DNA from: Flavobacteriaceae bacterium
Lineage (GTDB): Bacteria; Bacteroidota; Bacteroidia; Flavobacteriales; Flavobacteriaceae
DNA: 64,000 nucleotides
NCBI GenBank assembly: GCA_030683815.1
Contig: JAUXPJ010000008.1
Location: 1-64,000, forward strand
Direction: 5' to 3'
Positions 14,868 to 21,925 of this stretch are shown in pieces. The notes under the pieces are model-generated. The model saw only the letters and a program-made list of their open reading frames with translations, searched no databases and was not told the origin of the DNA. The position numbers were made by a program, and so were the translations under genes. Within the stretch, counting starts at the first letter, position 1; each line of letters begins with the position of its first letter.

Positions 14868-15633
14868 TCAACTTCCTAATTCCAATTGATTTTTTACCAA
14901 ATTAAAATAATCTCTTTTGTTGTTTACAAGTTCTTTATGATTTCCATTTTCTACTATTTCACCATTTTGAAGTACAATTATTTGGTTTGCATTTTTAACT
15001 GTACTTAAACGATGTGCAATAATTACAACTGTTTTCCCCTTAAAAAACTCCTGTAGGTTATCATGTATTACTTTTTCATTTTCGGCATCTAAAGCAGAGG
15101 TGGCTTCATCAAAAAATATATAATGTGGGTTTTTATAAACGGCTCTTGCAATGAGTAGGCGTTGTTTTTGTCCGCCTGAAATGCCATTACCAGATGCCCC
15201 AATTTTTGTATTGAACTTTAATGGTAAAGATTCTATAAAAGTTTCAATATTGGCAATTTTAATAGCATTTTTAAGATTTTCTTTATCAATATTCTCATCT
15301 CCTGTGGCTATATTTCTTTCAATAGAATCAGAAAAAATAAAACCATCTTGCATTACCACACCACAATTTTCCCGTAAACTTTTGGGAGAAATATTCTTAA
15401 TATTTTCAGAATTAAAAAAAGTTCACCCTGTGTTGGTTCGTAGAACTTTAACAACAATTTCATTAATGTAGTTTTACCACTACCACTTGCACCAACTATA
15501 GCAGTTATCTTTCCTTTTGGAATGTTGAAATTGATATTTTTCAGTACAAACGGAGATTTAGGTCCTTCATATTGAAAACTTACATTCTTAAATTCAATTC
15601 CAGTATTTTTATATGAAATTAAAGGAATGGATA
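14868..15633 (-). pseudogene. ATP-binding domain of a peptide/bacteriocin-exporter ABC protein, truncated and frameshifted
   Basis: Read on the minus strand from 15633, the frame contains IEFKNVSFQYEG and the Walker A loop GASGSGKTT (near 15485). A 7-base T tract (plus-strand A7 at 15414-15420) then breaks the frame. The remainder, 15359-14868, continues in another frame with VMQDGFIFSDSIERNIA, ISGGQKQRLLIARA (signature), FFDEATSALD (Walker B, D-loop) and the H-loop AHRLS. This pattern fits ABCB/PCAT-type exporters of bacteriocins and natural-product peptides. The N-terminal peptidase and membrane domains are missing because the IS21 end lies directly upstream. One base missing or two extra in the T tract would restore the frame; a sequencing error there is possible, but the gene is truncated in any case. 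Confidence 0.8.
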
Positions 15634-15674
15634 TTCCGGAGCAAAGTGAACAGTTATTTTGATTCTGATTTTAG
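15634..15674 (+). repeat. IS21 left inverted repeat
   Basis: It begins TTCCGGAGCAAAG and is the inverted partner of 18043-18083. It directly abuts the ABC-exporter coding remnant and probably carries the outward-facing part of the IstA binding sites. Confidence 0.75.
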
Positions 15675-15703
15675 GTTATATTAAGTGTCGAAAATCACTT
15701 AGT

Positions 15704-18019: not shown

Positions 18020-18042
18020 AAAATTTTGTCTAATTTTATAAT

Positions 18043-18083
18043 CAGAAATCACCATCAAAATAACTGTCCAGTTTAGTCCGGAA
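18043..18083 (-). repeat. IS21 right inverted repeat
   Basis: It ends GTCCAGTTTAGTCCGGAA, the inverted match to 15634-15674. Immediately outside is GTGTACAC (near 18090), a palindromic octamer that may belong to a longer terminal structure. Confidence 0.75.
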
Positions 18084-18137
18084 TAGGGTGTACACTTTCA
18101 CCGGAATAAGCAGCATAGGTTTTACCAAATAATAAAC

Positions 18138-18153
18138 AGAGCAATTTTGCTCT
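18138..18153. repeat. Short perfect hairpin upstream of the small secreted protein gene
   Basis: AGAGCAA-TT-TTGCTCT forms a 7-bp stem 25 bp before the ATG of the small Cys-containing protein. There is no T-run, so it is more likely an operator or 5'-UTR stem than a terminator. Confidence 0.4.
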
Positions 18154-18177
18154 ATTAACTAATTAAATTTTAAAAAA

Positions 18178-18390
18178 ATGAAAAAAATAATTTTAAGTAT
18201 GCTATTAGTTTTAGCAACTACATTTAGTTTTGCAGGGAGTGATACAACCAATATCCAATTAGCAGAAACAGAATACACCTGTGTTACAGTACACACTTCA
18301 TGTGGCATTACAGGTGTTGCATGTGGAAAAAGTATTGGAGGACTTATTGACGCTGCAATAGACCTTGATGATTGGATGTGTGGTGAATAA
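18178..18390 (+). CDS. Small secreted Cys-containing protein, unknown function (possible exported peptide)
   Basis: This encodes 70 aa. Residues 1-19 form a clear Sec signal peptide (KKIILSMLLVLATTFSFA). The remaining ~51 residues contain four Cys (in YTC, TSC, VAC and WMCG), a central GITGVACGKSIGG stretch and an acidic C-terminus. No family is recognised. A ~50-residue mature chain with four Cys could form two disulfides or carry a modification. It is followed by a stem-loop and then by GLPGLI and outer-membrane barrel genes, and is preceded across the IS by a peptide-exporter remnant, which suggests a secreted peptide or its relic. It has a Sec leader rather than a double-glycine leader, which argues against it being the substrate of that exporter. 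Confidence 0.65.
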   Translation: MKKIILSMLLVLATTFSFAGSDTTNIQLAETEYTCVTVHTSCGITGVACGKSIGGLIDAAIDLDDWMCGE

Positions 18391-18409
18391 GGACAATAAA
18401 TAATAAGAC

Positions 18410-18436
18410 AAACAGGTAGTTAAAAACTACCTGTTT
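18410..18436 (+). terminator. Stem-loop (attenuator-like) between the small protein gene and the GLPGLI gene
   Basis: AAACAGGTAGTT and AACTACCTGTTT form a near-perfect 12-bp stem with a tiny AAA loop 20 bp after the stop codon. It is followed by ATTAACC rather than a long T-run, so it may be a partial terminator or an mRNA-stabilising stem that raises the level of the small-protein message over the downstream genes. Confidence 0.6.
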
Positions 18437-18459
18437 ATTAACCTAAAAAATTTAAAACA

Positions 18460-19272
18460 ATGATAAAAAAAATAACATTTGCACTACTTTTATTAAGTTA
18501 CAGTCATATATACAGTCAAGACATTGTCGTAGAAAACGCTTCATATAAAGCATTGTATAACCTTACTTATTTGAAAGATTCTACCAATATTCAAAAGAAA
18601 AGTAGCGAGAAAATGGCTCTCCTTCTCGGAAAAAAGTATGCTCATTTTCAGAGTGAAAATGACAGATTTAATGATTCATTAAATGATCATCTATCCAACA
18701 ATAAAAAATACGATGCACAAACAGCTGTTAATATGGCTTTGACATTAAAGAAAAATACCATATTCAAATACAAAATAGTTAAATCGTTAAATGAGATTAT
18801 AGTCATTGATAAAATCTTTACTGATAAATTTTATTATAAGGAGCAACAAAAATTAAATTGGGTAATTACGGTTGAAACCAAACAAATTAACAGTTATTTA
18901 TGCCAAAAGGCAACCACTTCTTATGCCGGCAGAAATTACATTGCTTGGTTTACCAATTCAATTCCCATTAACGAGGGTCCTTATAAATTCAATGGACTTC
19001 CAGGTTTAATAATTGAAATACACGATACCAGAATGCATTATCATTTTGAGTTGTTGAGTTTAGAAGTATACAATAATAATTTTACAGTTGATTTAAAGAG
19101 CATTCAAGAAACGAGTAAAAAAGAGTTTTATAAGGCATCCACCAATTTTAAAAAGGATATTGTTGGCCAATTAGAGCAGCGCGGATATTCTTTTGATGAT
19201 GCTATTACTACTCAAATGAAGCGAAGTGTTAAAAATAGTAGAAACAATGATATTGAATTAAAAATTGATTAA
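18460..19272 (+). CDS. GLPGLI family protein
   Basis: This encodes 270 aa. An N-terminal signal peptide (KITFALLLLSYSHIYSQ) precedes a secreted domain carrying the motif FNGLPGLIIEIHD near residue 182, close to the namesake GLPGLI motif (TIGR01200). The Cys-x-x-A-x-T-x-Y-x-G-R phrase upstream (CQKATTSYAGRNY) is also typical. The biochemical role of the family is not established. It is found in Bacteroidota, often beside large carboxypeptidase-regulatory-like outer-membrane proteins, as here. It overlaps that gene by 8 bp, so both should be co-expressed. Confidence 0.88.
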   Translation: MIKKITFALLLLSYSHIYSQDIVVENASYKALYNLTYLKDSTNIQKKSSEKMALLLGKKYAHFQSENDRFNDSLNDHLSNNKKYDAQTAVNMALTLKKNTIFKYKIVKSLNEIIVIDKIFTDKFYYKEQQKLNWVITVETKQINSYLCQKATTSYAGRNYIAWFTNSIPINEGPYKFNGLPGLIIEIHDTRMHYHFELLSLEVYNNNFTVDLKSIQETSKKEFYKASTNFKKDIVGQLEQRGYSFDDAITTQMKRSVKNSRNNDIELKID

Positions 19273-21925
19273 GACAGGAATTACTCGAATTCTTTTAGTG
19301 CTTGGGTTGCTATTATTTTATATAATTGGTTTTTCCCAAACTACCATAGAGGGAAAAATAATTGATGAAAAGAATCAACCACTTTCGGGTACAACTATAA
19401 CAGTAACTAAAATTAATGAAGCTGTTGTAATTGCTTATACTATTACTGCTAATGAGGGTAGTTACACGCTTGGTGTTAATTCAAAACTAGACTCCATACA
19501 ATTTAATATATCGCATTTGGGTTATGCTAAACTTGTAAAAAAAATAATCAATAAAAATCAAACGATAAATTTTAAGCTTCAAGAATCCGATGAAAAATTA
19601 AAGGAAGTATTTATTAAATCAATTCCTATTACAAAAAAAGGGGACACTATTAATTACACAGTTAGTGCATTTAAAGAACAAAAGGATAGAGTAATCGCCG
19701 ATGTATTAAAAAAAATGCCTGGGATTGAGGTATTAACTGATGGAAGGATATTGTATCAGGGCAAGCCTATTGTTAAATATTATATTGAAGGATTGGATTT
19801 ATTAGAGGGCAGATACAATCTTGCCAATAATAACTTACCCGCTGATGCGGTTACTAAAGTGCAAATTCTTGAAAATCATCAACCAATAAAGATTTTAGAC
19901 AGTCTGGTATATTCCGACAAAGCGGCATTAAACATCAAACTAAAAAAGAATATTACACTTACAGGCACTGCAAAATTAGGCGTAGGTAACTATCCTTTTT
20001 TGTGGGATACCAATGTAACACCCATGTTATTTACTAAAAAACAACAAATGATAACTTCTTATCAAACAAATAATACTGGTAATGACCTCTCTAACGAATT
20101 AAAAATACTAACCTTAGAAGATTTGTTAGACCAAGTAGAGGGGAATCACGAGAAAAAAGATTGGGTAGCAATACAACCGTTATCATCGCCTCCATTTTCT
20201 GCTAAACGCTGGCTGGATAACAATGTTCATATGTTAACAACAAATTATTTGGTTCGATTGAAAAAGGAAGTCGATTTAAAAGTGAATTTATCCTACATCA
20301 ACGATTTTCAAAAACAAACTGGAATAACCCAAACCACATTTTATATCCCAAATGACACTATTAGTATTATCGAAAATACAAAAAATAAGTTGTTTTTAAA
20401 TTCCTTAAAAAGCAGGTTTATTTTAACTAAAAACACGTCTGAAAATTATTTTAAAAACACTTTTGAAGTGAATAGATACTGGGATTCTAATAGCGGTATT
20501 ATCTCCTCAAATGACGAAGAAATTAATCAAAAAGTTTCAAATCCATTTACATCAATCAGCAACAGAATAAAGTGGATTCAAGCTTTTGGTAAAAAATTAA
20601 TAACGATAAATTCCGTTACTATATATACTAATACACCCCAAGATTTAACCGTTACTCCAGGTTACTTTGAAGATCTTCTAAATAGCGCAAATCCCTATGA
20701 TAAAACCCATCAAAAAATATACTTATCAAATTTTTATTCTAATAACGCTGTGAGTTTTACAAAGGGATATGGCAGATTTACATTTATACCTAAAATTGGT
20801 TTGAAGCTTCAAAATCAGCAACTGGATAGCCGAATTACTATTTTTGAAAATCTTTCATTTGATGAGCTTAGCGGTAATTACCAAAATAATTTAAGTTATA
20901 ATAACACTTCTTTTTATACGATACTGAATACTCAGTATAAATATAAAAATTGGAATTTTGAATTGGAAACTCCGTTTAAATTTCTGGGATTTGACATTTC
21001 TGATGCTGATTTAAACAAAGCCCAAAAACTAAATCGTTTAACATTTGAACCGAGGGTGTATATTAGAAATGATATAAATGCATTCTTAAAAACAACTTTT
21101 ACGGTGAGTTCTAAGAAAGATTTTGGTGAGATAAATCAGCTGTATTATGGCTATATATTAAATAATTATAGAGGTCTAAAGCGATATGATACTCCAATTT
21201 TAGAAATTGATAAAAAAAATATTGCATTAGGTTTAAACTATAGAAATCCAATAAAATCAGTTTTTGCCAATGCTTCTTATTCGGCAAGTTATGCATCACA
21301 AAATTTAATGTTTGGTAATTTAATTAATAGTAATGGCACTGCTACTTTCAGCTTTATTGAAAAAGACAATTCAAGTAATCATCAAAATATTAGTTTAAGT
21401 GCCAGTAAATATTTTAGTACTTTAAAAACAACACTTACCATAATGTCAAATACTTCAACAGATAAAAGACAACAATTAGTAAATGGAATCCTCACCAATA
21501 GTACCTCAAAAAACAATCAGATTAATGGTAAAATAAATACCGAAATAACAGCATGGATAAGTCTTAATTACAAAAGTAACTTTTCAGTGTTAAACACCTC
21601 ATTTAATCATCAATCGTTTGATAAAATTATTATGCAAGAACATTTGTGGCATTTTAGTTTTTATCCAACATCAAATCAATACATCGGATTTGATACAGAA
21701 TTTTATAAAAATAACGGATCTGGTAAAAATCAAGAATACTATTTTCTAAACCTAAATTATAGATATACGCTTAAAAAAAACAAAACAGACTTTGAATTGA
21801 ATTGGAATAATATACTAAATACAAAAGAGTTTACAACGATTTATAATAATACATTTTTGTACACACAAAGTACCTATGTGCTTAGATCATCACAAATATT
21901 AGCAAGTGTCAAATTTAACTTCTAG
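19265..21925 (+). CDS. Carboxypeptidase-regulatory-like domain outer-membrane beta-barrel protein (TonB-receptor-like)
   Basis: This encodes 886 aa with a TTG start at 19265 overlapping the GLPGLI stop. A signal peptide (LLVLGLLLFYIIGFSQ) is followed by a CarboxypepD_reg-like beta-sandwich (TIEGKIIDEKNQPLSGTTI, residues ~25-110). A plug-like domain follows (KKMPGIEVLTDGRILYQGKP, ~150-240), then a long barrel of alternating strands ending in VKFNF, the aromatic C-terminus recognised by BAM. No TonB box was identified with confidence. Pairing with GLPGLI proteins is recurrent; a role in binding, import or export of a peptide is inference. The gene appears intact, and 131 bp follow before the T9SS stump. 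Confidence 0.85.
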   Translation: MIKTGITRILLVLGLLLFYIIGFSQTTIEGKIIDEKNQPLSGTTITVTKINEAVVIAYTITANEGSYTLGVNSKLDSIQFNISHLGYAKLVKKIINKNQTINFKLQESDEKLKEVFIKSIPITKKGDTINYTVSAFKEQKDRVIADVLKKMPGIEVLTDGRILYQGKPIVKYYIEGLDLLEGRYNLANNNLPADAVTKVQILENHQPIKILDSLVYSDKAALNIKLKKNITLTGTAKLGVGNYPFLWDTNVTPMLFTKKQQMITSYQTNNTGNDLSNELKILTLEDLLDQVEGNHEKKDWVAIQPLSSPPFSAKRWLDNNVHMLTTNYLVRLKKEVDLKVNLSYINDFQKQTGITQTTFYIPNDTISIIENTKNKLFLNSLKSRFILTKNTSENYFKNTFEVNRYWDSNSGIISSNDEEINQKVSNPFTSISNRIKWIQAFGKKLITINSVTIYTNTPQDLTVTPGYFEDLLNSANPYDKTHQKIYLSNFYSNNAVSFTKGYGRFTFIPKIGLKLQNQQLDSRITIFENLSFDELSGNYQNNLSYNNTSFYTILNTQYKYKNWNFELETPFKFLGFDISDADLNKAQKLNRLTFEPRVYIRNDINAFLKTTFTVSSKKDFGEINQLYYGYILNNYRGLKRYDTPILEIDKKNIALGLNYRNPIKSVFANASYSASYASQNLMFGNLINSNGTATFSFIEKDNSSNHQNISLSASKYFSTLKTTLTIMSNTSTDKRQQLVNGILTNSTSKNNQINGKINTEITAWISLNYKSNFSVLNTSFNHQSFDKIIMQEHLWHFSFYPTSNQYIGFDTEFYKNNGSGKNQEYYFLNLNYRYTLKKNKTDFELNWNNILNTKEFTTIYNNTFLYTQSTYVLRSSQILASVKFNF

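Follow-up and report, generated by a model that had tools for sequence, protein, structure and literature searches.

A candidate secreted-peptide cassette of Bacteroidota: a small cysteine protein, a GLPGLI protein and an outer-membrane barrel

Results

A 64,000-nucleotide stretch of a Flavobacteriaceae genome (GenBank assembly GCA_030683815.1, contig JAUXPJ010000008.1, positions 1 to 64,000; hereafter the window) carries, in one run on the plus strand, a 70-residue open reading frame (ORF), a hairpin, a gene for a GLPGLI family protein and a gene for a CarboxypepD_reg/barrel protein, as read from the ORFs of the window. There is good support for the view that peptide, carrier-like protein and barrel together form a functional unit. 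In its full form our interpretation is that of a three-gene secreted-peptide cassette whose GLPGLI protein and barrel export or display the peptide at the outer membrane for antagonism, which we regard as evenly poised between right and wrong. The original prediction of three co-oriented genes in a tight unit holds in all its coordinates, including the 8 bp by which the start of the barrel gene (19265–21925, plus strand, 886 residues) overlaps the end of the GLPGLI gene (18460–19272, plus strand, 270 residues).

Conservation of the small cysteine protein and its neighbours

The small gene (18178–18390, plus strand) is an ORF whose homologues lie within the same trio and whose product, as predicted, has a Sec-like signal and four cysteines. 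By inspection, the signal spans about residues 1–20; the cysteines (residues 35, 42, 49 and 68) all follow it and lie in the second half of the protein. The core region (18277–18387, plus strand), as defined by core alignment A6 and the core-only profile, has the pattern C-x6-CG-x5-CG-x17-C, which most copies in A6 keep as C-x(5-7)-CG..C(G)..C; exceptions include a Psychroflexus copy that is short of one cysteine and Tenacibaculum, which also deviates. No NCBIfam family matched the protein at cut-off, DUF6520 (PF20130) reached 19.9 bits over residues 1–49 against a Pfam cut-off of 25.4, and the match to AimP (NF033802) was likewise below cut-off. The precursor family TIGR04149 gave no match to the peptide at E values up to 1, and the peptide's leader, by inspection, is Sec-like and not of the double-glycine type. 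A scan with an anti-phage defence library matched none of the three trio proteins.

The small protein alone, used as a neighbour-blind query against 397 genomes of the window's family, matched nine genomes. Besides that of the window, a small ORF was hit in five of them, and in three the match fell inside long frames of 437–953 residues. At all five other small-ORF loci, which were read individually, the order is small cysteine protein, GLPGLI, barrel. A core-only profile built from A6 (11 loci, two of them Hymenobacter) recovered six trio genomes from the same 397 at E < 1e-12 and all others at 7e-3 or weaker; A6 includes these six family loci, so that the independent evidence is the single-sequence search and one further genome, G655. 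The latter stands outside the profile and is one of five matches among 395 genomes of the phylum, the others being the window and three non-trios; it encodes a 73-residue cysteine peptide and a GLPGLI protein (156 bits), after which a CarboxypepD_reg-like protein begins and is cut off by the end of the stretch. The trio and its core are conserved in seven genomes, the window's included. It had been predicted that the small protein would have dedicated periplasmic and outer-membrane partners, and the homologues bear this out: cysteine pattern and neighbours are kept together across loci. This conservation suggests that the ORF at 18178 is translated.

Weak core matches in genomes G589, G529, G328 and G059 proved on inspection of the loci not to be trios, nor was that in G001, which sits in a 655-residue frame. 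Because the flanking genes vary from locus to locus among the trios read with their flanks, and because A6 finds no match in the sample's two other members of the window's genus, we consider the trio to be an accessory island. A full-length profile (A1) had given 173 of the 397 genomes at E ≤ 0.01; beyond the six true ones the matches listed were mainly to the signal-peptide end, and A1 was replaced by the core-only A6. The window's own genome holds a second trio on contig C5 (L206:6081-9907), with an 87-residue ORF for a secreted four-cysteine peptide whose pattern differs, followed by a strong hairpin (z −6.6), a GLPGLI gene and an 890-residue barrel.

A hairpin follows the peptide gene

The stem-loop noted in the original prediction is present between the peptide and GLPGLI genes (18410–18436, plus strand) and is a conserved feature of such loci. 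It has a 12 bp stem and a loop of 3, no clear U-run, a free energy of −14.6 kcal/mol and a z-score of −4.8, and none of 200 shuffles was as stable. Across 26 homologous peptide–GLPGLI gaps the median z was −4.5, with 24 below −2, compared with a median of −0.6 and 4 of 26 below −2 for other same-strand gaps (Fisher p 2e-8); the 26 were chosen from the peptide list, with L046, L068, L088, L118, G012, G016 and others left unfolded. Where the peptide has a double-glycine leader, three of the four gaps folded contain a hairpin. The structure is probably a 3′ stabiliser or leaky terminator and, as such sites usually do, may yield more message for the peptide than for its partners.

The GLPGLI protein is predicted to be a LolA-like bowl

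The second gene encodes, as predicted, a clear member of TIGR01200/Pfam Porph_ging (174.8 bits against a cut-off of 50, E 2e-51) that contains the GLPGLI motif and, by inspection, a signal peptide. Its AlphaFold2 model, computed from 141 sequences, has a mean predicted local distance difference test score (pLDDT) of 91.4; the underlying alignment (A4) holds 141 of 142 listed rows, the omitted one (L113) having later been found to be a GLPGLI protein as well. The signature motif is retained across all 141. The model resembles the N-terminal domain of PNGF-II (Z 15.3 over 172 residues, root-mean-square deviation 3.3) and, at Z of about 8–10, the LolA/VioE/RseB group, with LolA entries up to 9.5, modestly above the best Z of 7–8 that models with no clear match often reach. 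The related domain is the N-terminus of PNGase-type enzymes. We therefore describe the GLPGLI protein as a predicted LolA-like bowl (an open beta bowl with helices) and a putative periplasmic carrier or binding protein.

GLPGLI genes are common: 30 of 41 sampled genomes of the family carry at least one, with 83 genes above cut-off, and phage sequences gave no GLPGLI match. Two GLPGLI loci (278 and 284 residues; L153:815-1177 and L158, minus strand) are preceded by a secreted protein of 118–120 residues with one cysteine after its signal. Another locus (L191:1263-6701, in G002) has five GLPGLI genes in tandem and then a barrel, and no peptide was found before the first.

The third gene is predicted to encode a TonB-transporter-like barrel

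The predicted CarboxypepD_reg/plug/barrel architecture was recovered as well. The 886-residue protein matches PF13620 just above cut-off (33.2 against 32.3 bits) and consists of a CarboxypepD_reg-like N-terminal domain, a plug-like segment and a large beta barrel, with profile matches to the SusC N-terminal domain (E 4e-9) and to siderophore-receptor C-termini (E 2e-4). In its AlphaFold2 model (pLDDT 90.2) a plug-like segment and about 22 long strands can be seen by eye. The 50 best Foldseek matches are all TonB-dependent transporters or their complexes, headed by FhuA and FoxA, with E values down to 5e-17 and template modelling scores of only 0.25–0.48. The model thus predicts the plug-in-barrel fold of a TonB-dependent transporter. 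A conserved stretch, LKEV.VK, lies between the N-terminal domain and the plug, and might by analogy be read as a TonB box.

Diverse peptides often precede short GLPGLI genes

The rule that emerges goes beyond the original proposal: in front of short GLPGLI genes one often finds diverse, unrelated secreted peptides with an even number of cysteines, and the set recurs with one peptide exchanged for another. Eighty named loci were fetched by the plug region of the barrel, being the best of a longer match list, and in 19 of them script and reading placed a small secreted cysteine peptide before the GLPGLI gene. Fourteen of these peptides have Sec-like signals (e.g. in Lacinutrix, Lutibacter, Psychroflexus, Hymenobacter, Chryseobacterium gambrini and Sediminibacterium; two of the 14 loci are closely similar Tenacibaculum loci, and L042 is apparently the contig of L005), and the remaining five, all from Bacteroidales, have double-glycine leaders. 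In L068 the peptide gene lies 481 bp from the GLPGLI gene, beyond the usual distance.

The same association appears in an unselected sample of 41 genomes of the family, to which one detector was applied for all GLPGLI regions and controls. Short GLPGLI genes (<281 residues, no large gene within 300 bp upstream) were preceded by a Sec-type peptide with at least two mature cysteines in 17 of 36 cases, a figure that includes the window's locus and stood at 18 before a false hit (G033:C1:292394, the end of another gene) was dropped. For GLPGLI genes of at least 281 residues the detector found 0 of 22, manual reading adding one (G040:C1:72749, 283 residues), and among control genes in control loci 5 of 108 were positive, none of them similar by eye to the peptides described here. 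The short class differs from the controls at p 2e-8 and from the long class at p 6e-5 (Fisher); the length split was made post hoc, and the values are optimistic, since cases from the same genome, many of them in G010, are not independent. Four loci whose peptide was found by manual reading were excluded from the tests: G014:C1:798017, G010:C1:59238 and the window genome's own C5 trio (short), and G040:C1:72749 (long). Among distinct peptides in this sample that contain at least two cysteines, all 20 have either two or four after residue 22.

Modified-peptide loci, an array and plasmids

The pairing extends to ribosomally synthesized and post-translationally modified peptides (RiPPs). In five Bacteroidales loci (L086, L088, L094, L108 and L113) a TIGR04149 precursor, scoring above cut-off, is followed directly by a GLPGLI gene (97.6 to 185.7 bits). 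Two of these, L088 and L094, also contain TIGR04148 maturases and TIGR04150 proteins, and L088 the start of a C39 exporter; elsewhere, a TIGR04148 maturase adjoins the barrel in L062, and C39 exporters lie near the barrel in L080 and L121. Candidate disulfide-forming proteins were seen at only two loci, both Bacteroidales: downstream of the double-glycine precursor, GLPGLI gene and barrel of Alistipes muris, a fusion of VKOR, thioredoxin and C39 domains (L113:7602-9131), and upstream of the barrel and C39 exporter of L121, a thioredoxin protein that matches VKOR weakly (L121:2-871).

Genome G010 contains an array (L209:2443-12354) of four peptide–GLPGLI units, each followed by only 171–254 nt that match the 5′ end of the barrel gene, and a fifth unit after which the barrel gene is complete; the third and fifth units share 97.9% identity along 1635 nt. 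Peptide and GLPGLI gene therefore travel together and share one barrel.

A trio is also found on a 7.9-kb plasmid of Prevotella corporis (NZ_CP118017.1, L249:6819-7897 and 50-2632), which encodes a 61-residue two-cysteine peptide, a hairpin, a GLPGLI protein and a barrel-sized gene (29% identity to the window barrel over 735 columns), its other genes being for replication, mobilization and a toxin–antitoxin pair, with two other short ORFs. On a Flammeovirga plasmid, a gene for a 58-residue four-cysteine peptide is accompanied by a GLPGLI gene (168.7 bits) and by one of barrel size (25% over 911 columns). Among seven plasmid records considered (L248, L249 and L251–L253 by sequence, L250 and L255 by annotation, with L254 left out), three have a peptide: two near copies from P. 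corporis and the Flammeovirga plasmid. The 12.3-kb record L248 resembles an enlarged and rearranged version of the small P. corporis plasmid and has two GLPGLI genes.

The region upstream of the trio

Trio and upstream genes lie in what appears by eye to be a region of the surface-polysaccharide type. An IS21 element precedes the trio, with 49-bp inverted repeats that are 82% alike (15632–15680 and 18037–18085), and on its far side lies the gene fragment originally taken for a remnant peptide-exporter ATPase (14868–15632, minus strand). Relatives' frames and motifs identify it as the nucleotide-binding domain of a C39-type exporter, frameshifted and cut at the left IS21 end: the relatives are frames of 728–773 residues, and the six read in context start with a C39 motif (two of them also by family scan). 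This part of the prediction stands; a role as component of the unit does not, because no such exporter occurs at the six other trio loci whose surroundings were read (L204 having only a SufC-like ATPase); the copy here is decayed. No Peptidase_C39 match turned up genome-wide at E ≤ 0.001, and by eye no radical-SAM maturase is encoded among the window's ORFs up to 32 kb.

The short gap that separates the small gene's start codon from the end of IS21 holds an inverted repeat with 9 bp arms (18135–18156). Elsewhere in the same genome (G000:C2:54819-55086; L257, L258) there are short fragments 83–84% identical to both IS21 ends of the window.

Discussion

In the cassette as we picture it, Sec would export the precursor encoded by the small gene, disulfide bonds would probably form in the periplasm within the precursor's C-terminal core (about 37 residues), and the hairpin 3′ of the gene would keep the peptide message in excess. 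The bowl fold of the GLPGLI protein suggests a periplasmic holder, which would keep or escort the peptide, and the TonB-transporter-like barrel would pass the peptide across the outer membrane or display it there. The peptide would most likely act on other bacteria in the manner of a bacteriocin. Antagonism would explain the fast sequence change, the orphan peptide–GLPGLI units, the trio plasmid and the sharing of the GLPGLI–barrel pair with RiPP loci, and the toxin BcpT, encoded on a small mobile plasmid, offers a precedent for plasmid-borne antagonism (PMC9308784). The original prediction had left a choice between bacteriocin-like, signalling and metal- or redox-related functions; we favour the first, and the window holds no evidence for a metal or redox role.

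Several observations weigh against export for antagonism. Import is the known function of TonB-dependent transporters, and there is no evident immunity gene. No peptide was accepted at 61 of the 80 best barrel loci, including all eight from Pedobacter; several of these contigs end early, and eight loci (L052, L054, L072, L092, L095, L096, L104 and L111) had an ORF flagged by the detector that was rejected by eye for overlap with the GLPGLI gene, few cysteines, distance, lack of a signal-like start or a position other than before the GLPGLI gene. Since nearly all long GLPGLI genes are without a peptide too, the GLPGLI–barrel pair can evidently work without one. In a wider list of 44 peptides 35 have an even and nine an odd number of cysteines. 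At RiPP loci equipped with a complete type I exporter, export would not require the barrel, and L080 and L121, which have C39 exporters near the barrel, show no GLPGLI gene in the stretch read. Finally, all 15 plasmid records that match GLPGLI are typed as non-mobilizable in PLSDB, the small P. corporis plasmid among them despite its gene named as a mobilization protein.

The alternative that survives best reverses the direction of transport: the peptide would be secreted by another route and bind a ligand such as a metal or haem, or serve as a pheromone, with the barrel as TonB-driven receptor and the GLPGLI protein as periplasmic acceptor. The hemophore HasA works with its receptor HasR in this way, and HasR is among the Foldseek matches of the barrel, whose predicted architecture is that of an importer; LolA-like bowls bind ligands, and RiPP-type loci can include a C39 exporter of their own, leaving the barrel free for import. 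We nevertheless consider reuptake or signalling unlikely: by eye no ligand-binding motif is common to the differing peptides, no inner-membrane uptake gene is adjacent to and co-oriented with the trios, and the units of the G010 array share one intact barrel, which would thus not be peptide-specific there.

A toxin–immunity arrangement, in which the peptide is a toxin against which the GLPGLI protein, by itself or together with the barrel, shields the producer, would account for the orphan peptide–GLPGLI pairs with barrel remnants, which recall the orphan toxin–immunity modules of polymorphic toxins, and for the addiction module on the trio plasmid. It is decidedly unlikely, given that the GLPGLI protein keeps its signature motif across the alignment and occurs without peptides, and that its related domain at the N-terminus of PNGase-type enzymes would be odd for an immunity protein. 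Very unlikely is an ordinary transport or envelope role with the peptide serving a GLPGLI–barrel complex as a small subunit, a plug or a folding aid; peptide-less pairs are widespread and two pairs are preceded by the larger single-cysteine secreted protein described above, yet the peptides are highly divergent, multi-copy and sometimes RiPP precursors with maturases, a poor fit for a subunit. Chance proximity of an unrelated small ORF to a GLPGLI–barrel pair, which the many barrel loci without a peptide might suggest, is next to impossible and already contradicted by the seven trios with a conserved core and by the low background of the detector.

Tentatively, and with more doubt than confidence, we propose a new outer-membrane pathway of Bacteroidota in which GLPGLI carriers and TonB-type barrels export or trade hypervariable disulfide peptides delivered by Sec or C39, with peptide–carrier cassettes exchanged upstream of a shared barrel. 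If so, the GLPGLI family would have its first role. Were the barrel to export the peptide, the direction would be unusual for a TonB-type barrel; were it to import the peptide, the latter would be a secreted ligand or signal of a new kind. The link to a variable peptide gives a common and unexplained family a testable role, and looking upstream of short GLPGLI genes is a simple route to many unannotated peptides, some of them on plasmids and in human-associated species.

Comparison with known systems

Searches of an open-access library gave no description of a peptide–GLPGLI–barrel unit, which we regard as little described. In the passages considered, the GLPGLI family is listed among regulated genes only, its function unstated and its pairing with variable cysteine peptides unmentioned. 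Its predicted fold is like the bowl of LolA/LolB and of the N-terminal domain of PNGase F-II, with identity of at most 16% among the matches listed; a lipoprotein-sorting or glycosidase role has no support for the GLPGLI protein.

The nearest relatives by gene content are the GG-Bacteroidales radical-SAM RiPP clusters (TIGR04148/04149/04150), which in five loci place a TIGR04149 cysteine precursor before a GLPGLI gene and barrel, with a hairpin in three of the four gaps folded. The window differs in its Sec-like signal, in having no TIGR04149 match and in having no maturase or intact exporter nearby. A 2015 survey calls these clusters sactipeptide-like and, in the passages considered, mentions neither GLPGLI nor the barrel (PMC4573289); the word TonB does not occur in a paper on Bacteroidales RiPP mining (PMC10352776).

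Bacteroidetocins, too, are small four-cysteine peptides of Bacteroidota that are thought to be disulfide-bonded; they have their own double-glycine leader, C39 transporter, membrane protein and thiol oxidoreductase, and the text never uses the word TonB (PMC6671954). The window peptide does not belong with them: its signal is Sec-like by inspection, and neither a C39 transporter nor a thiol oxidoreductase was seen intact beside the trio. Graspetide loci of Bacteroidetes depend on an ATP-grasp enzyme, and GLPGLI is not named in the survey of them (PMC8939145). They resemble the unit described here in being RiPP loci with a PF14905/SusC-like barrel and fast-evolving precursors, for which the authors of that survey predict export via TonB-receptor-related proteins (PMC8939145).

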